DNA of 30,600 bases from a virus, in IMG/VR virus record IMGVR_UViG_3300032116_000918, positions 1-30,600 of that record; one strand, given 5' to 3'. The position numbers and the translations under genes were made by a program. The notes beneath the pieces are model-generated. The model saw nothing but the letters and a program-made list of their open reading frames with translations, searched no databases and had not been told where the DNA came from. This document shows positions 3,107 through 17,631 of the stretch, one piece after another; the first letter of the stretch is position 1, and each line of letters opens with the position of its first letter.

Positions 3107-3614
3107 CATCAGCATCAGCATCAATAGAATATTCAAGACCACCAACAGCGTTCTTGACTTTCTCTTCTGCATCTTCTACTGATTCTGCTTTAACAGTGAA
3201 TGTGTAAGTAATAGTTACTGTACCTTCGAACTCTTGTTGCAACAGGTCAGCACCTATTTCACCAAGCAACTCGTTGGCTTCATCACGATGAACAGTTATC
3301 TCATCATCGCCACCATCGAACTGGTCTTTGAAAAAGTTATGAACTGCTACTTGTAACTTACTGATATCACCTAGTCTTTTATCTAATCGTTCTGCTTGTT
3401 CTTTTATTGTTGCTTCATACTCATTTATCTTTTGTTGTAAATCATTTAACGGTCCATCAAACGTGACCGTTGCTTTTACTACTTCTTCTTCTGACATTTC
3501 TTGTTCTCCTTTTCTGAGTGTGCCCTGCCCATGACAGGTAGGGCACACGATGTTGATATTATTTATTTTTATATAACCTGCTCCATAACATGCGAAGCAC
3601 CATACTTCTGTCAT
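3069..3614 (-). CDS. Zinc-finger plus coiled-coil/acidic protein with two likely starts
   Basis: The full ORF is 181 aa. Its first 39 residues hold two DnaJ-like repeats, CFACYGAGY (C6, C9) and CPTCHGQGT (C24, C27), i.e. a CxxCxGxG zinc finger. This start is an ATGA overlap with the DUF932 stop. M40 (ATG at 3497) has its own strong site AAAAGGAG, 8 nt upstream, and would give a 142-aa protein: a helical coiled-coil segment (DLQQKINEYEATIKEQAERLDKR), an 'HRDEANELLGEIGADLL' segment, and a beta-rich acidic tail. So one ORF may encode a long zinc-finger form and a short form. Function unknown; the same neighbourhood (DUF932, GP88-like) is typical of actinophage early regions. Confidence 0.78.
   Translation of the reverse strand: MTEVWCFACYGAGYIKINNINIVCPTCHGQGTLRKGEQEMSEEEVVKATVTFDGPLNDLQQKINEYEATIKEQAERLDKRLGDISKLQVAVHNFFKDQFDGGDDEITVHRDEANELLGEIGADLLQQEFEGTVTITYTFTVKAESVEDAEEKVKNAVGGLEYSIDADADDEYSEESIEVEF
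3518..3548 (-). promoter_or_regulatory. 12-bp hairpin inside a gene, just before an internal ribosome site
   Basis: Bases 3518-3529 pair with 3537-3548 (12 pairs, one G-U), leaving a 7-nt loop. On the minus strand the hairpin ends 4 nt before AAAAGGAG, the ribosome site for the internal ATG 3497. It lies within the codons of the second CxxC of the zinc finger. Stem and loop resemble the hairpin before the DUF932 gene (shared CCCT.CC, CATG, GGCAGGGC). Confidence 0.55.
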
Positions 3615-4624
3615 TGCAGAAGCAAGTCCAATGCACGGTCCTTCAACACTTCACCTTCTGCTAACACCACACGTTCAGCACGACGAGTATCACTACCACG
3701 CACTGTTGAATAGTAATCAGCATACTCAGTAACAGAGTTAAACAAACGCCAAGCATTATTGTCTAACATCTGTTGACCTGGTGAATTATGATACAAGTTT
3801 TTAATTGTATCTCTCTTAGTGTCAAGCATTGTAATAACCTTTAACTCATTCTTTTCCAATGGTCGCTTGCCCATAACCTTAGCAATATCTACTGGCACAG
3901 GAAACAACTTAGATAAGAACTCATCAACATCACCATTGGTGACAGTTGTTTTAGTTAACTTGTCTGCTTGTTCTTGTAAGAAACCACCATACTCAAATGA
4001 TAGTTGCATAACATCACGTGCTTCAGCAATAGACTTATTACTATTAGCAGTATGTCTGATGGTGTGTTTGTATTGTGATGCACGACGTGCCATACGCCAA
4101 GTGTTTTGACACACAACACGTACTGCTGTCAATGCAACAGATAAACTAAACGAACCATCATGTGATGTGGTTGCAAAGATATACATATCTGATTTATCTT
4201 TACCACCTACAAGGATACCGTTAGGCATACGCATGGTGATGAATATCTTTTTACCACCATCAATTGAACCAGCAGTTTCATATGATGAACCACTATCAAC
4301 TAATGCATCAAGGAAGTTAAACACTTCTTTGTTTTGAATAGGTGTGTATCTGGTACCCACTACACCTAACGCATCACGTGTATCTTTCAATGGATGCTTA
4401 CGTATGGTGGCGAACTTGTCTTTAACATCAACAATTTCTACACCAGTATCGGTAACAACAACTGATTGAAGTGGATGTAATTCCACTGTCCAATCAAGCA
4501 TTGCTTTTTCAATGGCAGACTGGGCTGTTAGTTCTTCTTCAACTACTTGTCCTAGTCCATGCCATCCTGCTTCACGGTAAGCAACAAACGCTGTCTCACC
4601 ATCTATCTGTTCTAGATTGTGCAC
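3611..4624 (-). CDS. DUF932 / TIGR03299 phage-plasmid-like protein
   Basis: 337 aa, GTG start with AAAAGGAG 4 nt upstream. It has the layout of DUF932 proteins: an N-terminal 'AYREAGWHGLGQ' and 'A..DW.VE' segment, 'KHPLKDTRDALGVVGTRYTPIQNKE' (77-101), 'FL.AL...G..YETAGSIDGGKKIFI', 'VRVVCQNTW' (168-176), and a helical C-terminal half. Family members are common in phages and conjugative plasmids, and the molecular role is unknown. The gene heads a new transcription unit: a structured 130-nt leader separates it from the small-gene cluster, and its stop overlaps the next gene by ATGA. Length matches the family (about 320-350 aa). Confidence 0.88.
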   Translation of the reverse strand: MHNLEQIDGETAFVAYREAGWHGLGQVVEEELTAQSAIEKAMLDWTVELHPLQSVVVTDTGVEIVDVKDKFATIRKHPLKDTRDALGVVGTRYTPIQNKEVFNFLDALVDSGSSYETAGSIDGGKKIFITMRMPNGILVGGKDKSDMYIFATTSHDGSFSLSVALTAVRVVCQNTWRMARRASQYKHTIRHTANSNKSIAEARDVMQLSFEYGGFLQEQADKLTKTTVTNGDVDEFLSKLFPVPVDIAKVMGKRPLEKNELKVITMLDTKRDTIKNLYHNSPGQQMLDNNAWRLFNSVTEYADYYSTVRGSDTRRAERVVLAEGEVLKDRALDLLLQ

Positions 4625-7049: not shown

Positions 7050-7159
7050 CAGTACCACCTACTAATCTCATCAGCAATAACCATTAACCCTACAAACAAC
7101 ATAGACCAGGCAAACCATCTGTAATTATTACGAACTACATGTCGATGTCTACGCAACAT
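7049..7159 (-). CDS. 36-aa single-pass membrane micro-protein
   Basis: The peptide starts MLRRHRHVVRNNYR, strongly basic, followed by WFAWSMLFVGLMVIA (15-29), hydrophobic enough for one short membrane helix, and ends DEISRWY. Basic residues first suggest N-in orientation. A very good ribosome site, AGGAGG, sits 6 nt upstream of ATG 7159. It is the first gene of the overlapping micro-gene chain, preceded by tandem hairpins. Role unknown; small membrane proteins of phage early regions often affect the host envelope (inference). Confidence 0.62.
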   Translation of the reverse strand: MLRRHRHVVRNNYRWFAWSMLFVGLMVIADEISRWY

Positions 7160-7180
7160 CTGTAACCTCCTATATCTAAT

Positions 7181-7243
7181 ACAGACTGGATGTCAGTCTG
7201 TTTGTTAGTGCTCCTACCAAAATGCAACTGTGTTAGACAGTTG
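7181..7243 (-). promoter_or_regulatory. Two tandem small hairpins in the leader of the micro-gene chain
   Basis: ACAGACTG (7181-7188) pairs with CAGTCTGT (7194-7201), loop of 5. CAACTGT (7225-7231) pairs with ACAGTTG (7237-7243), loop of 5. The first ends 8 nt before AGGAGG of the 36-aa gene on the minus strand. No clear promoter hexamers were seen between the terminator hairpins and this point, so the unit may be read through from upstream. Confidence 0.45.
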
Positions 7244-7257
7244 TATCGACCTGCTGA

Positions 7258-7311
7258 GGCTAGCCGTATTTCTACGGCTAGCCGTAAGCAAACCTCCTTA
7301 GAGGTTTGCTT
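7258..7311 (-). terminator. Tandem strong hairpins at the end of the 123-aa gene
   Basis: Hairpin one: AAGCAAACCTC (7286-7296) with GAGGTTTGCTT (7301-7311), 11 bp and a 4-nt loop, overlapping the stop codon of the 123-aa gene. Hairpin two: GGCTAGCCGTA (7258-7268) with TACGGCTAGCC (7273-7283), 11 bp; on the minus strand its loop is GAAA, a stable GNRA tetraloop. No long U-run follows. Tandem placement right after a stop suggests termination or 3'-end protection. Confidence 0.65.
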
Positions 7312-7669
7312 CAGCAAAGTCGATAACAAACTGGTCTAACCAGTTGCCACCTTTTTGGATAGGAGCACGCTTGCTGTGATATCCAGTCACATGAAAGACT
7401 GGGCTGTGTGCTTGAGTCTTGCGGTTTCGTTTAGCGTCTTCTTCTGTGTTGAAGAGAACATCACCGCCTGTTGCTTCAGGGTTGCTGTCGGAATCAGCAA
7501 CTTTAAAAGTTGCTCCGACAGCACCCCATGCAACGAATGCTCCAGACCATTGGAACTTATCGTTGTCGTCGCGAACTGTCATCCAGCCGCGTGTGCCAAG
7601 ATACTTACCGCTTTTGGTGATATCTTTTAGATTGCTTACTTGCACGCTCGTGTATTCTGTGCCTTGCAT
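7298..7669 (-). CDS. Unknown 123-aa protein, first gene of the leftward arm
   Basis: The protein looks beta-rich: YTSVQVSNLKDI, GWMTVRDDNDKFQWSGAFVAWG, ATFKVADSD, HSPVFHVTGYHSKR and WLDQFVIDFAEANL. No motif recognised. ATG 7669 has an excellent ribosome site AAAGGAGG, but that site lies in the base of a roughly 230-nt hairpin (7675-7906), so translation may be controlled. As the first gene after the divergent control region and isolated by tandem terminator-like hairpins, it is probably expressed early and strongly. Function unknown. Confidence 0.75.
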   Translation of the reverse strand: MQGTEYTSVQVSNLKDITKSGKYLGTRGWMTVRDDNDKFQWSGAFVAWGAVGATFKVADSDSNPEATGGDVLFNTEEDAKRNRKTQAHSPVFHVTGYHSKRAPIQKGGNWLDQFVIDFAEANL

Positions 7670-7674
7670 GGTTC

Positions 7675-7906
7675 CTCCTTTGTAGAGAGCGTTCTTTCAC
7701 CATGTTTACGCTAGCCAGCCACGCGAAACACCCATTGCGTGTGTGGGCTCGGTTTTCCGTGTGATTTATAGCACACCGCTCCTTTTGGTGTGGTATAAAT
7801 CATGCGAGAAAACCGTGGTGCCGACACACCAATGGCAGCCTCTGTACGGCTGGTGTGTTTCTCGTGAGCATGGCTAGCGTGGTGAAGAACGCTCTCTAAC
7901 AAAGAG
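7675..7906. repeat. Giant imperfect inverted repeat / long hairpin
   Basis: Left and right halves are complementary along almost their whole length. Hand pairing gives helices 7683-7696/7885-7898 (14 bp), 7698-7701/7881-7884, 7708-7717/7871-7880 (10 bp), 7725-7731/7855-7861, 7734-7737/7830-7833, 7739-7744/7824-7829, 7750-7757/7808-7815 (8 bp), 7762-7770/7794-7802 (9 bp) and 7772-7777/7787-7792. The terminal loop is 9 nt. A side hairpin CAGCC/GGCTG sits at 7836-7852. The total is about 78 pairs with small bulges. The base extends through 7678-7682/7900-7904 into the ribosome site of the gene at 7669. No direct repeats flank it, so a mobile MITE is not favoured. Confidence 0.8.
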
Positions 7907-8313
7907 AGGGACCGTTCTCATGCAAGGCAACAGATACCGAGCGTGCAGTGCTAGTAAGCATCTAAAAGATGCTCTATCACCAAAACGGTTCTCGTATCTG
8001 GCACCGTGGCTCACCACGATGACATCGCGACGGCGACAAGTCCAATGGGCTATTCGTTGCGTGGGGATACACTGAAGCCCCACAGGCGTCTCATCAACAC
8101 GAAGAGACGCAAACGAAACAAGCACACAGACACTGTCTGAGTGACTGTTATAACACAGCAAAACAAACAGACACAGACAGACAGATGTCGCCGTCTAGTC
8201 AGTGCAGACTGAAGTCCAAGACAGGAGTGGTCAGATGTGACACAGGTACGTCGCAGGCAGTCTGCAACGGACCCCAGAGTGTTTAATCTGGACCACAACG
8301 TATATATGAATCA
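7675..8313. ncRNA. Candidate large structured non-coding RNA or long structured leader
   Basis: About 640 nt without a credible protein gene. Counted 60-base blocks here reach 52-58% G+C, against 32% in one right-flank block and about 40% in a sampled coding block. Besides the giant hairpin there are several more helices. 7931-7941/7991-8000 is a 10-bp helix with one bulge, enclosing 7957-7963/7967-7973. 8061-8066/8078-8083 and 8086-8092/8104-8110 are local hairpins. GACGGCGACA (8029-8038) pairs perfectly with TGTCGCCGTC (8186-8195), enclosing those two hairpins. GCAGACTG (8204-8211) pairs with CAGTCTGC (8258-8265). The strand is undecided. Leftward transcription would make it the leader of the 123-aa gene (TATACT at about 8319-8324 could be a -10). 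Rightward, a 7-T run at 8322-8328 could end it. Size and context recall the large ornate phage RNAs GOLLD and ROOL, but no family match is claimed. Confidence 0.55.
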
Positions 8314-8430
8314 CCCAGTATATTTTTTTGTTACGGTGGCATAGTCTGTTTTTGTTGTTTTTTGGTTTGTTTTATAACGTTTTGGTGTATTGTTGTCCGC
8401 TTTTGTATTTTGGACGGATTAGTATATAGT
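8314..8430. promoter_or_regulatory. T/G-rich, strand-asymmetric control segment
   Basis: The plus strand here is almost devoid of A and C over long stretches (for example 8342-8395: runs of T with G), and it starts right at the end of the G+C-rich structured region. It lies between the divergent arms, so both sets of promoters should be in or near it. Candidate -10 boxes are TATACT on the minus strand (8319-8324) and TATAGT on the plus strand (8425-8430); neither has a convincing -35. An unstructured leader or an easily melted origin-like segment are alternatives. I see no gene. Confidence 0.4.
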
Positions 8431-8523
8431 GAGGGGATAAATATTTTATCCCCTCTGTTACTGTAAAACAGATGTTTAAAGCCTTTAATGGGCTTTAAAC
8501 ATACTGTTCTGTAACTGTTACAG
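8431..8523 (+). promoter_or_regulatory. Two hairpins and an operator-like dyad before the terminase gene
   Basis: GAGGGGATAAA (8431-8441) pairs with TTTATCCCCTC (8445-8455), 11 bp with a 3-nt loop. ATGTTTAAAGCC (8472-8483) pairs with GGCTTTAAACAT (8491-8502), 12 bp with a 7-nt loop, and the stem extends imperfectly outward to about 8462/8513. CTGTAACTGTTACAG (8509-8523) is a perfect odd dyad, the form of a repressor operator, and it overlaps the outer stem. Related half-sites (CTGTTAC, TGTAAAACAG) occur at 8455-8471. This is probably the control region of the late rightward operon (inference). Confidence 0.5.
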
Positions 8524-8558
8524 TGTGCAGTATTTTAGAGTTACGGATAGGTGTAGGT

Positions 8559-10433
8559 ATGGGGTTCCAGAAGGGTAAGGAGCACCAGAACGCTGTTGAT
8601 TCTGTGGAGGCTAAGAGGTTAGTTCTTCAGTATGTTTCTGAGGGTGTTGGGGTTCAGCAGGCTATTGGGCTTGTAGGGCGTCAACCTGTTACCCTACGCC
8701 AATGGATGTCTCGTGACCCTGGGTTTGCCCGCAAACTTGAGGAAGCCAAGGAGTCTGGGGCTTCTAAAGATTTATCTGGTGATAAGTATCAGATTGAGTT
8801 TTCTGAGTTTTCTAAAAAATTTTTGAACAGTTCTATTTTTCCTCACCAACAGAATTGGGTTGATGTGTTGGAGGGGCGTGAGCCTTCTTGGCTTCACCCT
8901 AGCATGGTTTATGAACCTGCTGACCCTACAAGGTTGTTAATTAATGTGCCACCTGAGCATGCTAAGTCTACTACCATTACTGTGAATTATTCTACTTATA
9001 AGATTTGTAAGGACCCTGACAATACTCGTATTATTGTTATTTCTAAAACCCTGACTAAGGCTCAGGAGTTTGTGTATTCTATTAAGCAACGTTTGACGCA
9101 TCCGATGTGGGCTAAGTTGCAGGCAACCTATGCTCCTCCTGGTGGGTGGCGTGAGGATGCTGATTCTTGGAAAGCCAACGCTATTACCCTTTCTCGTACT
9201 TCTACTGAGAAGGACCCTACTGTTCAGGCTTTGGGTATTGGTGGTCAAGTGTATGGTGCTCGTGCTAACTTGATTATTTTGGATGATTGTGTGACTGGGG
9301 CTAACGCCCATGAGTGGGCTAAACAGTTAGAGTGGATTCAGAAAGAAGTTGTTACTCGTCTTGACGACGAGGGTGTTTTGTTAATTGTTGGTACTAGGTT
9401 TGCTGCCACAGATTTGTATAGGGAGATTCGTAACCCTAAGCATTGGTCTAATGGTAAATCTCCTTTCACTTATTTTTCTATGCCAGCAGTTTTAGAAACT
9501 TCGGAGGACCCAAAGGATTGGGTTACTTTGTGGGCTAAGACTGACCAGAAGTCAGGTACTAAGAAAGAACCTGATGAGAATGGTTTGTATTCTAAGTGGG
9601 ACGGTCCAGCCCTGTATCGTAGGCGTGGTGAGGTTACTCCTAGTACTTGGGCGTTGGTTTACCAGCAGCAAGATATTCAAGAGGATTCTATTTTCAAACC
9701 TTTTTGTGTGCAGGCTTCTACTAATGGTATGAGGCGCACAGGTCCTGTTAACCATAAACTTCCTGGGCATCCTAAAGATGGTGACTTTTACACCATCATG
9801 GGTATTGACCCTGCTATGACTGGTAAGACTGCTGCTGTTATGTTGGCGTATGACCGTAGAACACATATGCGTTATGTGTTGGATGTTTATAACATGGTTG
9901 ACCCTAATCCTCAAAAGGTTCGTGCTTTGATGGAGGATTGGGTTAACAAGTATCATCCGCAGGAAATGCGTGTTGAGATTAACGCACACCAGAAAGCGTA
10001 TGCGTTAGATGAAGAATTAAACCAGTGGTTAACGAACAGGGGTATTCAGTTCCGTTCACATTTTACTGGTAAAAATAAATGGGATGTTGATTTTGGTGTA
10101 GCCTCTATGGCTGCTTTGTTTGGTAGTGAACGTGATGGTAAACACCAAGATGATAATTTGATTGAACTTCCTTCTGCTGAAGGAAATGAGCATGTTAAGG
10201 CTTTAGTAAATCAATTACTTACCTGGTCTCCAGGTGTAAAGAAATCACAAGCAACTGACTGTGTGATGGCTTTATGGTTTTGTGAAATTAGAGTTAAAGA
10301 GTTAATCCAACAATCTGGGTTTGCTCAATCACATACGTATAACAGATATGCAACAAAGGCTGGTATACGTAATAGAGGAACAGTTAATCTAGATGACCTT
10401 GCTGCAGCACAATATGCTGAAGCATACTTATAG
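8559..10433 (+). CDS. terL: Terminase large subunit (DNA packaging ATPase/nuclease)
   Basis: 624 aa from ATG 8559, preceded by AGGTG-type purines; GTG 8523 is in frame but overlaps the operator-like dyad. It packages the genome into the prohead. N-terminal residues form a helix-turn-helix-like segment (VLQYVSEGVGVQQAIGLVGRQPVTLRQW). The ATPase domain has a variant Walker A VPPEHAKST (about 130-138), Walker B LIILDD (about 238-243) and coupling motif VGTRFAATDLY (about 277-287). The RNase-H-like nuclease begins at MGIDPAMTGKTA (about 414-425). The HTH at the front may replace or recall a small-terminase function; no separate small subunit is seen. Early codons are G/T-rich, later ones A-rich. 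It ends in a stop that overlaps the portal's TAGGAG. Confidence 0.93.
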   Translation: MGFQKGKEHQNAVDSVEAKRLVLQYVSEGVGVQQAIGLVGRQPVTLRQWMSRDPGFARKLEEAKESGASKDLSGDKYQIEFSEFSKKFLNSSIFPHQQNWVDVLEGREPSWLHPSMVYEPADPTRLLINVPPEHAKSTTITVNYSTYKICKDPDNTRIIVISKTLTKAQEFVYSIKQRLTHPMWAKLQATYAPPGGWREDADSWKANAITLSRTSTEKDPTVQALGIGGQVYGARANLIILDDCVTGANAHEWAKQLEWIQKEVVTRLDDEGVLLIVGTRFAATDLYREIRNPKHWSNGKSPFTYFSMPAVLETSEDPKDWVTLWAKTDQKSGTKKEPDENGLYSKWDGPALYRRRGEVTPSTWALVYQQQDIQEDSIFKPFCVQASTNGMRRTGPVNHKLPGHPKDGDFYTIMGIDPAMTGKTAAVMLAYDRRTHMRYVLDVYNMVDPNPQKVRALMEDWVNKYHPQEMRVEINAHQKAYALDEELNQWLTNRGIQFRSHFTGKNKWDVDFGVASMAALFGSERDGKHQDDNLIELPSAEGNEHVKALVNQLLTWSPGVKKSQATDCVMALWFCEIRVKELIQQSGFAQSHTYNRYATKAGIRNRGTVNLDDLAAAQYAEAYL

Positions 10434-12169: not shown

Positions 12170-12586
12170 ATGGCTGAACAAGTATCAGGTGTTGGCAGAA
12201 ATTCTAAAAGAACAGATTTAAATCCTTCCCAACAACCAGTTAGATATATGTCTGGTGGGACTTATGGTGAAGGTCAAGAACTTTTAGGTTTACAACAAGG
12301 TGCATCAATGGTAGGTCAAACACCTCAAGCACCTCAACCATCAATGGGTGCTATGCAAGCACTTGCTTCAGCAAGACCTGTTGTTCCTTTAACAGCAGTA
12401 ACTCAAAGACCTAATGAACCTTTAACCGCAGGTGTTGATTTTGGTGCAGGTCCAGGAAGTGATGTTTTAAACTTGCCTCGCCCACAACAAAGAACATTAA
12501 AATCTGTTGTTGAAGAATTAATACCTTTTGATGAAACAGGCGAAATATCTGCAATTTATAATTTCTTACTTGACAGAGGTAATTAG
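12170..12586 (+). CDS. Small disordered protein between portal and giant virion protein
   Basis: 138 aa, rich in Gln, Pro, Gly and Ser through residue 115 (PSQQPVRYMSGGTYGEGQELLG, QTPQAPQPSMGAMQALASARP), so mostly disordered. A short ordered C-terminus, RTLKSVVEELIPFDETGEISAIYNFLLDRG, may be a docking helix. It starts right after the portal stop and its own TAG overlaps the GTG start of the next gene. Probably a virion or assembly accessory; no family recognised. Confidence 0.75.
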   Translation: MAEQVSGVGRNSKRTDLNPSQQPVRYMSGGTYGEGQELLGLQQGASMVGQTPQAPQPSMGAMQALASARPVVPLTAVTQRPNEPLTAGVDFGAGPGSDVLNLPRPQQRTLKSVVEELIPFDETGEISAIYNFLLDRGN

Positions 12587-15500
12587 TGGCAACTTCATGG
12601 AGCGAATTAGTACCTGTTACTAATCCTGAACTTGCTGTTGCTGGATACAAAGCAGGTTTACAAGGAACTGATTTAAAACAAATCAGAACTTGGGATAAGT
12701 TATATGCAAAGCATCGTGAACTACTTGACATTAAAGATGACAAAGTAGCCTTCGATACTTACAACAAACTTGACCCTGTTATTCAACAGATGCTTACAGA
12801 TAATTTTCAAGCAAATTATATGTCTCGTCCACAAGATTGGACTGCTGGGGACCTTATTGCTGATGCTTTAAAGTTAGCACAAAGCCCATTCAAGGCAGGG
12901 TTCAAAGCATTAGAAACCTACAGCCGTGCAATCTCTTTACCTTATCTTGCTGTTAAAGGAAAAATGCAAGGTGATGATACTTCTAATCTTTGGAAAATTT
13001 GGCGTGACGATTGGGACGGCACCAAAATATTTGACAAAGGTGCAACAACAACTCTTGATGAAGCATACGGTAAAGGCATTAGTGTTTTAGCCAAAGGCAT
13101 TGTTTCAGGTATGACACCTGGTGAAGTAATTGAAGACCATGGTGGGATAGACCCTGAGTTAGAATTTGCTTTAAACTTTATGTCAGAAAACCCTGCACAG
13201 TTTCAAGATATTATTTCAGACTATAAAAGAACACAAGCCTCTGTTGGTCGTGATATTGCACGTGGTTTATTTGGTGGACCTACACCAGGTATGCAAACTG
13301 CTGCAGAGAAATCTTTTGACAGAGCATCAGGTGTGTTCGATGCAACCTATCAAATACTTGCTGACCCATTAACATATGCCACTTTAGGTTTTGGTCCTGC
13401 ATTAAAAGCAGGTGCTAAGTTGGCAAAGATTTATGATGAAATGGGTGGGGGTTCTTTAGGTGTCAAAGCAGTTTTTGAAAATAAAAGATTTGGTAAACAA
13501 GTTGTAAGATACTGGAACAATATTGGTCCACTATTAGATGACCTTGGTCGTGCAACATCTAACGCTGAAAAAGCAAACATTCGTGATGAGATTGCTTTAA
13601 AGTTTCCAGAGTATAACAATCCAGCAATCCTTGATGAATTAGTTAAAGGCGGAGTTAAAGACGCTGAAACTGCTAAAAGTTTCTTTTCAATAACAGAACA
13701 TGCTGGTAAATTAATTAATGGTAGAACTGATTCAATGCAGTACTATCGCAGTAACCAAGTAGCAACTGCTAATCGCATATCTATTGTTAATCGCACAGCA
13801 CGTTCAATGGTTAACTCAATCTTTAACACACCAACAAATGCTGCAAAAACCGATATTGCTTTAAGTAAAATTGCTGAAGGTTATATTCAAACTGGTGAAG
13901 ATATAACCCAAGCAGCACAAGTGTTAAAAAATTTACGTGAAATTAACCCTGCTTTCATTGAAGCAGAAAAAACATTGAACACAGTTAAAGGTAAGATTTC
14001 TAGATTTGCTTCACGTCACCCATTAGATAAACCAATCTATGTTACCGACGATATGGTTTTAGAATCAATAACAACCTTTAACGAGTTATCTAGAATTGTT
14101 TTACCTAAAAATCTTGCTGGTGCTCTATCACAAAAGTTTATTGATTCTAATCAAGCAGAACGTATTGCCTTATTACGTGGACTAATGACAGATGTTTTAA
14201 CAGCATCAGGTCTTGGTGCTACACCTAAAGGTGTAAATCTTATAAATACTATTCTTGACCAAAAGTTTATTGGTTCTATTTCTAACAAAATTGAAGTTAG
14301 TCCAGATTTTGTGCCAACAGGAACTAATCTTGGTAAAGTTAGAGTAGAAAATGGTAGAACTTTCTTAATTAAAGAAGGTCCAACCCAACCAAATGGTTAC
14401 TCAAACACTATTGGTAACCTTGATTGGCGTGGAATCAGCGACCTTGTTTCACAAACAATTGTCAACCAAGACCCTAAATACATTTTAAGAAACCTTTCAC
14501 CAATTGTTAACGGCAAATTTGCTACTGAGTTTACAAATGTATGGAGTGTATTAACTCTTTTCCCTAAACTTGGTGTAAGAGCAACAGTTGACGAATTATT
14601 TTTCTTTGTTAACTATGCACCTAAAGAAGCATTATATAACTTTTTCTCACTTAAAGGTCTTGCTGGTGCAAAGATTCGTAGTGCAGCCACAAGAAGTGGT
14701 GCTGGTGTTTCACTAACTGCAGAGAAATTACAAAAAATTCCTGAGTTACTTGGGGAAACAGAAACAGTTGATATCTTTAATAAGTTTTTTGCTGACGTAA
14801 GTCTTACAAAAAATGAACAAATGCTTGGTGCTCGTAGGGAAATAGCAGAACTAGCATTAGAACGTTTCTCAGGTATCAGCGCAAGAACATTAACACCTGA
14901 CCAGAAAAAAGATTTAATCAATTTCTTAACCTATGACCCACGATTTGGTGACGCAATTACCTCTGGTGTAGCAGGAAACATGCTAGGTATTAGAAGTAAG
15001 ATTAATAGTTCAGTAACTATGTCTGCTTCTAAGTTAACTGAAGCATTTAATAATGAAGGCTACACTCAAATTGCTGACTATATTAAACAGGCAGAGAATT
15101 TAAGTAATAATCAAAAACAATTCCTACATTATTATTTCTTTCACACTAAAGGTGCACGTAACTCTTTTAAAGATGCGTTTGATTTAGACATAGAAGACCC
15201 AATTGAATACGCAATGCGTAACAATGGGTTAAAAACATCACAAGATGTAGACAATGCTGTTGATGAAATGATGTCAGCGATGGGATTAGTTTATACTGGT
15301 CCATCAAGAACGCTACAATTCATACCAAATTCTGCATCTGACCCTGTAGTTCTTAATAGAAGCATACTTAAAGGTGGCAAGTTAACACCTAAGCAAGCAA
15401 AGAAACAAAAGGCTTTAGAGAAGTATTTATATGCTGACGTTGAATCAGCATACTCAGGTGGCACATCACCATTCTCAGTATTACGTGACCGTTTAGAAAC

Positions 15501-17631
15501 AATGATGCTAGATTTGCGTCAAACTATTCACGGAACAGCAGACTTTAGTTCAGTTAATGATAACATTGTTAATGAGTTAAGTCAAAGAGCAGTAGAAAAA
15601 GGTGGAAGTTTTAGCCGTACTATTGCTAGTATGACGTTTGATGAATTTAAAGCATTAACTGCTAAGAACATTATGGATGTTGAAGGTGTTTATGCACCTG
15701 TTGATTTTGTTGGTGACACAGTTGAATCTTTATGGACTCGTGTTGGTAACAAGATGTTTGAATTTATGGACCAACAAGTTACATCCATATATAGAACACC
15801 AGCCTTCTTTTCACTATATCTAGCAAACATGGACCGTTTTAGAAGGAATGGTCACTATTCAGGTTACTTAAATGAAGTAGTTAATAACTATAAAAAACTA
15901 GGTTATGAACAAAGAACTGCTGAAAGATTTGCAACAGATGTTGTAAATAGATTCTTTACTGAAGAAGCAGCCAAAGATGCTGCTAACTTAGTAATGAAAT
16001 ATGCAGATAACCCACAGATTCGTAGCCAACTAGCATTCAGTTTAAGAAATGGTGCACGTTTTTACCGTGCTACAGAAGATTTTATGCGTCGTGTTTATAG
16101 AATGAAAGACGTTTCATTAAGAACAATAATGCGTATGCGTCTTTCTGCTTTAGGTTTAGAAGCATCAGGTATAGTTCATGAGGATGCACAAGGACAAAAG
16201 TATGTTCTTATGCCAATGGATGACATGATGTTTCAGGTAATTGATAAGCCAATTAGAACATTAACTGGTGGTCAAAGCGGATACAGCCAACCATTGTTTG
16301 GTGATTTCACTATTCGTTTATCACAAATTAACCCATCATTTGGTCCTGATGCTGCAATGCCAACATTGTCTGGTCCTATCGCTGGTGCCAACGTTGTTAT
16401 CTTTAAGGCTATTGCTGGTAGGTTTGGTGAATCAGGTCGTATACTTTCAGATAAAGTAGATAACGTTTTACTTGGTGATATTGGTGATAACATCACATTA
16501 CGTAAAGCAATTCTTCCTGTATCTGTAGATAGAATTTTAAAAATTGTTGATGCTAATGAAAAAGATAAACAAGAATTAACTGCTATTCATCAAGCAATTG
16601 CTTACGATGCAGCACATGGTAGAGGTTTACCAGCAGATGCTACACCAGAAGAACAATATGAATATATTAAAAACATTCGTATTGCTGCACATAACGTAAT
16701 TATTATGCGTAATGCTTTTGGTTTAATTCCTGTACCATTCTCACCTACATTAAAAGAATCTAAAGATGTACCTAAGTTTTTAAAAGAAGTAGGTATCACA
16801 AGTGTTCGTCAAGAGTTCTTTGATATTTATGAGAATGTTTTAAAGGCACCTAACCCAAGAATAGATGACCCATTTGAAGAAGCATTGGCTATCTATATTG
16901 GTAAGAACCCAGGTAAACTTGTATACACAGTTTCTCGTGCAGAAAAAGACAGAGATATTGCATTCAGAAAAACTGATGAAGTTAAAGACTGGTATATAAA
17001 GAACACAGATTTAATTGAAAAGTATGGTGAAGTTGCATTCTTAGCAGCACCATCTATTGGTGATTTTAGTGCATCTGCTTACGCATGGTTTGAAGCAGCA
17101 GGTATGATTAAGAATAAAGATTTACAAACATATTTGAATGATGTAAGAACTGCTGAAGATAAACAACTTTATTTTGATTTAGAAGAACGTGCAGGGGAAG
17201 CGTTAAATAAAACATTTGACCCTACAGCACGTAAGCAAATCACTGAGAGTTTAAAGAACTATCGTGATATTTTAAAGATTCAAAATCCTTTACTTCGTGC
17301 ACAACTTGAATCAGGTGATTATGGTACTGCTAAAGAAGAAGCAATGCTTAACTCTTTACAGTTCTTAGTTGCTGACCCTAATGTTAAAATGGATGCGAAG
17401 ACTAGAGATAAGTTAACTAAAGCAGTTGAGATTCTAAGTGCTACTTCAGCCAAGTTGCAATACGCAGGATATGAAGAAACTTTTGGTGTTAAGTTTAAAC
17501 GTGAAGTTAGAGACTTGGCTATCAGAGATTTAGAAACTTTAGGAAGATTAGATTCTTCTGTTGCTCAAGCAAACAAAGCAATTTTTATTCCAATACTTAA
17601 AAACTATAGCAGAGATACTAGGTTGAACTAA
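12586..17631 (+). CDS. Giant 1681-aa virion protein (probable internal/ejection protein)
   Basis: 1681 aa, GTG start overlapping the preceding TAG. Mostly predicted helical with no catalytic motif I recognise. The N-terminus (MATSWSELVPVTNPELAVAGYKAGLQG) is followed by a region rich in Ala/Gly helices (about 90-130 and 180-290). The remainder is long helices with many Lys/Asp/Asn. It lies between the portal and a lytic transglycosylase/LysM pair, as do the large internal virion proteins of podoviruses (compare T7 gp15/gp16, a role known for those proteins), so an ejection or core protein is the best inference. It does not look like a tape measure: no long coiled-coil repeat and no transmembrane cluster is evident by eye. 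Confidence 0.75.
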   Translation: MATSWSELVPVTNPELAVAGYKAGLQGTDLKQIRTWDKLYAKHRELLDIKDDKVAFDTYNKLDPVIQQMLTDNFQANYMSRPQDWTAGDLIADALKLAQSPFKAGFKALETYSRAISLPYLAVKGKMQGDDTSNLWKIWRDDWDGTKIFDKGATTTLDEAYGKGISVLAKGIVSGMTPGEVIEDHGGIDPELEFALNFMSENPAQFQDIISDYKRTQASVGRDIARGLFGGPTPGMQTAAEKSFDRASGVFDATYQILADPLTYATLGFGPALKAGAKLAKIYDEMGGGSLGVKAVFENKRFGKQVVRYWNNIGPLLDDLGRATSNAEKANIRDEIALKFPEYNNPAILDELVKGGVKDAETAKSFFSITEHAGKLINGRTDSMQYYRSNQVATANRISIVNRTARSMVNSIFNTPTNAAKTDIALSKIAEGYIQTGEDITQAAQVLKNLREINPAFIEAEKTLNTVKGKISRFASRHPLDKPIYVTDDMVLESITTFNELSRIVLPKNLAGALSQKFIDSNQAERIALLRGLMTDVLTASGLGATPKGVNLINTILDQKFIGSISNKIEVSPDFVPTGTNLGKVRVENGRTFLIKEGPTQPNGYSNTIGNLDWRGISDLVSQTIVNQDPKYILRNLSPIVNGKFATEFTNVWSVLTLFPKLGVRATVDELFFFVNYAPKEALYNFFSLKGLAGAKIRSAATRSGAGVSLTAEKLQKIPELLGETETVDIFNKFFADVSLTKNEQMLGARREIAELALERFSGISARTLTPDQKKDLINFLTYDPRFGDAITSGVAGNMLGIRSKINSSVTMSASKLTEAFNNEGYTQIADYIKQAENLSNNQKQFLHYYFFHTKGARNSFKDAFDLDIEDPIEYAMRNNGLKTSQDVDNAVDEMMSAMGLVYTGPSRTLQFIPNSASDPVVLNRSILKGGKLTPKQAKKQKALEKYLYADVESAYSGGTSPFSVLRDRLETMMLDLRQTIHGTADFSSVNDNIVNELSQRAVEKGGSFSRTIASMTFDEFKALTAKNIMDVEGVYAPVDFVGDTVESLWTRVGNKMFEFMDQQVTSIYRTPAFFSLYLANMDRFRRNGHYSGYLNEVVNNYKKLGYEQRTAERFATDVVNRFFTEEAAKDAANLVMKYADNPQIRSQLAFSLRNGARFYRATEDFMRRVYRMKDVSLRTIMRMRLSALGLEASGIVHEDAQGQKYVLMPMDDMMFQVIDKPIRTLTGGQSGYSQPLFGDFTIRLSQINPSFGPDAAMPTLSGPIAGANVVIFKAIAGRFGESGRILSDKVDNVLLGDIGDNITLRKAILPVSVDRILKIVDANEKDKQELTAIHQAIAYDAAHGRGLPADATPEEQYEYIKNIRIAAHNVIIMRNAFGLIPVPFSPTLKESKDVPKFLKEVGITSVRQEFFDIYENVLKAPNPRIDDPFEEALAIYIGKNPGKLVYTVSRAEKDRDIAFRKTDEVKDWYIKNTDLIEKYGEVAFLAAPSIGDFSASAYAWFEAAGMIKNKDLQTYLNDVRTAEDKQLYFDLEERAGEALNKTFDPTARKQITESLKNYRDILKIQNPLLRAQLESGDYGTAKEEAMLNSLQFLVADPNVKMDAKTRDKLTKAVEILSATSAKLQYAGYEETFGVKFKREVRDLAIRDLETLGRLDSSVAQANKAIFIPILKNYSRDTRLN

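Follow-up and report, generated by a model that had tools for sequence, protein, structure and literature searches.

The region at 7675-8313 was found to be a reshaped, inverted and non-coding copy of the neighbouring phage gene, which probably encodes a single-strand DNA-binding (SSB) protein, and in related phages each copy matches its own gene. Gene and copy evolve together in a way for which we found no description in a phage, although the papers searched cover only an open-access library. The region lies in a 30.6-kb virus record, here called the window (the whole stretch of DNA that was analysed), and is the non-coding half of a quasi-palindrome of about 1 kb.

A quasi-palindrome beside the terminase gene

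A preliminary description, made from the sequence alone, had pointed to 7675-8313 as a G+C-rich, non-coding and densely structured region, and this observation was confirmed. In 200-nt windows the G+C content was 0.47-0.53 over 7600-8300, in comparison to 0.32 at 8300-8500 and about 0.37-0.45 in most of the flanking coding DNA. The 52-58% given earlier is a little high at this window size, and the neighbouring gene itself has 0.46-0.52, which explains the G+C of the copy. No conserved protein frame was found: ORFs of 63-95 aa exist mechanically, but the copy is broken in frame by dozens of indels. The helices listed earlier can all be read in the sequence, namely the perfect 10-bp pair 8029-8038/8186-8195 (GACGGCGACA/TGTCGCCGTC), the hairpins 8061-8083 and 8086-8110, the 8-bp pair 8204-8211/8258-8265 and the bulged pair 7931-8000. 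Folding of 7675-8313 gave -287 kcal/mol, with a z of -11.6 against 20 dinucleotide shuffles. However, most of these helices are private to the allele of the window, and the 8-bp distal pair loses one pair without compensation in two loci of relatives, L012 and L085 (L numbers denote such loci). The preliminary description had also missed that the strongest structure is the nested inverted repeat at 7675-7906, and that the whole block is an inverted copy of the gene at 7298-7669.

These inverted repeats led to the main finding. When the left side was reverse-complemented, the right side aligned to it over about 600 nt, from an axis near 7783 outwards through the whole 5' region and most of the coding sequence of the minus-strand gene. 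The alignment score was 283 in comparison to 53±8 for shuffles. In a scan of the window this was the only long quasi-palindrome, with a score of 252, whereas the next sites scored 60 and 48 and the median was 27. The parts of the locus are as follows.

7298-7669, minus strand: coding arm, a gene of 123 aa (P0001) for a probable SSB-like OB-fold protein, the first gene of the leftward arm.
7675-7906, no strand: axis of the quasi-palindrome, with nested inverted repeats (arms 7753-7777/7787-7811, 7708-7734/7854-7880 and 7675-7696/7885-7906) centred at about 7783 and including the ribosome-binding region of the gene; the axis hairpin (T)GATTTAYACCACRCC ... GCTRTAAATC is present in all three allele classes described below.
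7919-8161, plus strand: non-coding arm, the inverted and indel-edited copy of the gene, beginning with the counterpart of its ATG (7920); the strict alignment ends at 8162 and weaker similarity continues to about 8260; 300 matches, 22 mismatches and 41 indels, including the axis.
8176-8313, no strand: outer conserved block next to the copy, with a GTCCGTTGCAGACTGCCTGCGACG-type hairpin on the minus strand, the right-hand boundary of the exchanged cassette; 84-100% identical to all relatives, while 7126-8150 is 15-80% identical; in L006 and L012 its inner part pairs with the 3' flank of the gene.
8320-8520, no strand: A+T-rich intergenic part with the palindromes GAGGGGATAAATATTTTATCCCCTC and ATGTTTAAAGCC..GGCTTTAAACAT, a leftward promoter-like site at 8467-8440 (TTTACA-16-AATATT, no better than chance) and the likely terminase promoter region.

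The window encodes terminase (8523-10433), a portal protein, a DnaB-like helicase and other phage genes. No Pfam, PHROG or NCBIfam match was found for P0001. An AF2 model of low confidence (mean pLDDT 54.7) has the beta-beta-beta-alpha-beta-beta order of an OB fold, and in a Foldseek search its top PDB hits were nearly all SSBs, the best of them bacterial (E 0.014, probability 0.99). Some of the top viral hits are also named SSB. SSB-like is therefore a probable and not a proven identity. Very stable hairpins lie 3' of this gene at 7160-7360 (z about -13), and the 3' hairpin differs in sequence between the allele classes. The leftward arm also encodes a Cas4-like exonuclease (1469-2128; weak NCBIfam match below the cut-off) and a DUF932 / TIGR03299 protein (3611-4624), and the structural arm has a 1681-aa ORF (12586-17631) without PHROG or NCBIfam match and with only sub-threshold Pfam matches.

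Relatives and co-evolution of gene and copy

Searches with terminase, with the gene and with a DNA pattern gave ten further contigs of the same clade in IMG/VR that reach the site (loci L002, L003, L006, L008, L010, L012, L013, L014, L016 and L090). All of them have the gene and an inverted copy between it and terminase, with palindrome scores of 136-463 in comparison to about 30 for shuffles. As the same arrangement was found in eleven contigs from many metagenomes, with three different gene versions, an assembly artefact was rejected. In phage reference genomes no DNA match to the region and no protein match to the gene were found, and a collection of genome contigs gave no relative of the gene. 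More distant relatives (terminase about 60-87% identical) have a structured intergenic region but no such copy, and palindrome scores at the other terminase-bearing loci were all below 60. In four distant relatives (L019, L023, L028 and L034) long, G+C-raised and hairpin-rich leaders were also seen 300-600 nt upstream of terminase, before the first leftward gene, although these genes are unrelated to P0001 and not copied. Upstream of terminase in these four loci, with terminase only 78-83% identical, the motif TATATACTAATCCGTCCAAAATACAAAAGCGGAC, found at 8380-8460 in the window, is kept next to a hairpin of changing sequence (GAGGGG..CCCCTC and variants), and is probably the terminase promoter with a 5' hairpin. 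Repeated TGTTATAA / GTTACCAAA units, possible binding sites, were found about 170-250 nt upstream of terminase in the same four.

Three allele classes were distinguished: the window (W), L002/L003 and L006/L012/L090. Homologues of the gene are 69-72% identical in L002/L003 and 51-54% identical in the L006/L012/L090 class. In L002/L003 the copy consists of segments of about 9 nt identical to their gene with about 5 nt dropped between them, whereas in L006/L012/L090 it spans the whole coding region and beyond, with mostly 1-2 nt indels. Between classes the genes are homologous but saturated at synonymous sites or with dS above 1.7, while the dS of the neighbouring terminase genes is 0.085-0.31. 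The divergent stretch, 7126-8150, coincides with the quasi-palindrome and is flanked by DNA that is 79-100% identical, so gene and copy form a hypervariable cassette that is exchanged between phages as a unit.

Copies of different classes could not be aligned with each other (scores 20-34, with a background of 23 and a maximum of 38), yet each copy aligned with its own gene (88-298; W copy with W gene 182, L002 92, L006 271, L012 298 and L090 280). Between classes, the copies match well only the genes of their own class. The axis hairpin is shared by all classes, so its inner part is old, whereas the outer copy may have been either continuously corrected or re-made in each class. Within the L006/L012/L090 class the copies form their own clade, so there the process is piecemeal. 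Of 15 gene differences at paired sites between L006 and L012, 10 are mirrored in the copy, and of 14 between L012 and L090, 13 are mirrored. Over 437 gene:copy pairs, 92.5% of cells pair, and 14 pairs have changes on both sides in comparison to 7.5 in shuffles; this number was reached by 0 of 500 shuffles, and only 0-2 such pairs were seen when the arms were slid.

Folding of the copy

The copy is not simply decaying. In L006 there are 65 indel events but 34 mismatches. To determine whether the edits are random, the same number and sizes of edits were placed at random on the gene sequence, which was then folded. The real copies folded better, with z of -2.5 to -6.2 in W, L003, L006, L012 and L090, and a weaker effect (-1.3/-1.7) in the short L002 alignment. 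With G+C matched, the z values for the opposite and gene-sense strand were -2.4/-1.9 in W, -1.7/-2.8 in L003, -2.4/-4.4 in L006, -2.6/-4.8 in L012 and -4.5/-5.9 in L090. The indels thus build local hairpins, and the effect is stronger on the gene-sense strand in four of five alleles, whereas in the window's own allele the opposite strand folds slightly better. The hairpins themselves are replaced between L006 and L012, with different sequences paired in the same place, and compensatory changes were almost absent: 3 of 112 pairs in the local helices had changes on both sides and many were broken.

The predicted rod formed by gene and copy has an energy of -445 to -605 kcal/mol (z -13 to -57) but shows no consistent strand preference. 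If pairing between gene and copy were selected in RNA, G-U pairs on one strand should dominate the imperfect sites. This was not the case, as we counted 10 gene-sense, 5 opposite and 17 transversions, so an RNA rod under direct base-pair selection is not supported. This points to upkeep at the DNA level, although the better local folding of the gene-sense strand in four of five alleles favours an RNA role in addition. A pattern scan for promoters found 2 promoter-like sites against 1.9 expected, which decides nothing.

No Rfam family matched at gathering score in the window or in L002, L003, L006, L012 and L090, and only sub-threshold chance hits were obtained, mainly to eukaryotic miRNA and snRNA/snoRNA models. 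ARAGORN found no tRNA in the window; tRNA genes are a frequent but not an obligatory neighbour of GOLLD and ROOL (PMC12286853). The interpretation offered by the preliminary description was partly supported. It had proposed a large RNA of the GOLLD or ROOL type, a new class, or a regulated leader. That the region is densely structured and non-coding is right, and relatives keep this property, but a stand-alone large RNA is not supported, nor is a new class with conserved helices. What is conserved is complementarity to the adjacent gene. The leader is the option we keep, on the strand opposite to terminase.

Interpretation and comparison with known systems

Our preferred reading, to which we give a probability of about 0.4, is a gene/anti-gene quasi-palindrome whose non-coding arm is the folded leader of the gene's own leftward transcript. 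The analysis itself establishes that the region is an inverted duplicate of the adjacent SSB-like gene with its 5' and, in one class, 3' flanks, that in ten relatives the arm matches its own gene although the genes have diverged to saturation between classes, that gene changes are mostly mirrored, and that the many small one-sided indels improve the local hairpins of the copy. The mechanism and the function are inferred from sequence. We consider it somewhat more likely than not that the arms are kept alike by template switching between them, or by short gene conversion, during replication, while indels that break the palindrome are retained because a perfect 1-kb palindrome would be unstable. 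Template switching is documented to homogenise inverted-repeat arms and to make and mend hairpins (PMC8604942, PMC8794818). More tentatively, a transcript starting near the terminase end would run leftwards through the copy, the axis and the gene. The copy would fold into local hairpins as it is made, and once the gene is transcribed the two could pair into a bulged rod that covers the ribosome-binding site and coding region. In this view the pair would act as a self-complementary leader that limits or times synthesis of the SSB-like protein, possibly relieved or enforced by that protein itself. The absence of G-U enrichment, of a consistent strand preference of the rod, of a leftward promoter better than chance and of covariation in most local stems speaks against this view, and template switching by itself might explain both arm similarity and local hairpins without any function.

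The main rival, only somewhat less likely, is a mutational palindrome without a function, in which an old inverted duplication is kept alike only by template switching or gene conversion, local template switches also perfect small hairpins in the free non-coding arm, and palindrome-breaking indels are retained because perfect palindromes are unstable. The lack of G-U enrichment and of rod strand preference fits this reading, as do adjacent double changes including transversions (alignment columns 488/657 and 489/656), which are expected of one template switch, and published precedents (PMC8604942, PMC8794818; discussed for mitochondrial palindromes in PMC6649704). On the other hand, about 600-900 non-coding nucleotides are retained in every member of the clade that reaches the site, across gene divergence beyond synonymous saturation, and a strand-blind mutation process does not predict better folding on the gene-sense strand in four of five alleles.

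A functional DNA element, such as a replication start, packaging or recombination site whose hairpins are recognised as DNA or single-stranded DNA, with the SSB-like protein as a possible partner, is unlikely. The position between divergent gene blocks and directly upstream of terminase, the strand-symmetric structure, the conserved A+T-rich palindromic neighbourhood and the exchange of the block as a unit are in line with it. However, relatives with 60-83% identical terminase lack any long quasi-palindrome at this place, and there is no reason why such a site should copy an entire gene. An independent large non-coding RNA acting in trans and merely derived from the gene is less likely still: the region, and the copy arm in all alleles, fold strongly, but there was no Rfam match, no helices are conserved between alleles, and complementarity to the neighbouring gene is what is conserved. 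DGR-like variation was considered and set aside because the differences are mostly indels rather than adenine changes. A plain decaying pseudogene fits the broken frame of the copy but is contradicted by own-gene matching, mirrored changes, the excess of indels over mismatches in L006 and the folding of the edited copies.

It remains possible, though less likely than not, that the locus is a new kind of phage control element: a protein gene permanently coupled to its own inverted, re-edited antisense copy, in which one nucleic acid must fold locally by itself and also pair with the whole coding sequence, and the pair is exchanged between phages and renewed as one unit. If the coupling is functional, it is a full-length gene/anti-gene switch in a tailed phage, and a place where RNA or DNA structure and protein coding are seen constraining each other over hundreds of bases. 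If it is purely mutational, it is a clean natural record of template switching over arms of about 500 nt, with a coding arm as internal control. Either way it is a warning that strong folding and compensatory changes, the usual signs of a structured RNA, can come from an inverted copy of the neighbouring gene.

The ornate RNAs GOLLD, ROOL and OLE (PMC12286853) also comprise several hundred nucleotides of densely structured non-coding sequence, and GOLLD and ROOL occur in phages, but here there is no covariance-model match, no tRNA nearby and no conservation of helices, and the sequence is complementary to the adjacent gene. Obelisks (PMC13096302, PMC11922315) and delta-like agents (PMC8256844) are rod-like RNAs of about 1 kb, in which a protein-coding side is paired along its length with the other side through many short helices and bulges. 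Those are circular RNA replicons with their own proteins, whereas the present locus is an integral part of a tailed-phage DNA genome with an SSB-like protein and no sign of ribozyme or circularity. A replicon of the Obelisk type, a circular RNA genome encoding Oblin, is not expected, as the locus is fixed beside terminase in eleven phage contigs and the rod shape is the only shared trait. Autoregulated mRNAs of single-strand-binding proteins, such as T4 gene 32, likewise have a structurally special region, but gene 32 is not known to have an inverted full-length copy of itself, and regulation is only inferred for the present locus. The coding palindromes of nematomorph mitochondria (PMC6649704) are long inverted repeats that overlap protein-coding sequence and are kept alike by an unexplained process. 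There both arms encode conserved protein and the repeats are perfect (up to 142 bp per arm), whereas here one arm is non-coding, imperfect and bulged, in a dsDNA phage. The locus behaves like the long quasi-palindromes with concerted arm evolution known from other genomes. In inverted repeats homogenised by template switching (e.g. PMC8604942, PMC8794818, PMC7202029) the arms are also kept alike, changes appear in both arms, sometimes as adjacent multi-base changes, and hairpins are created and mended. However, those cases concern short repeats or RNA genes, whereas here the arms are about 500 nt, one is a whole protein gene, and the other is non-coding and riddled with one-sided indels that build its own hairpins.
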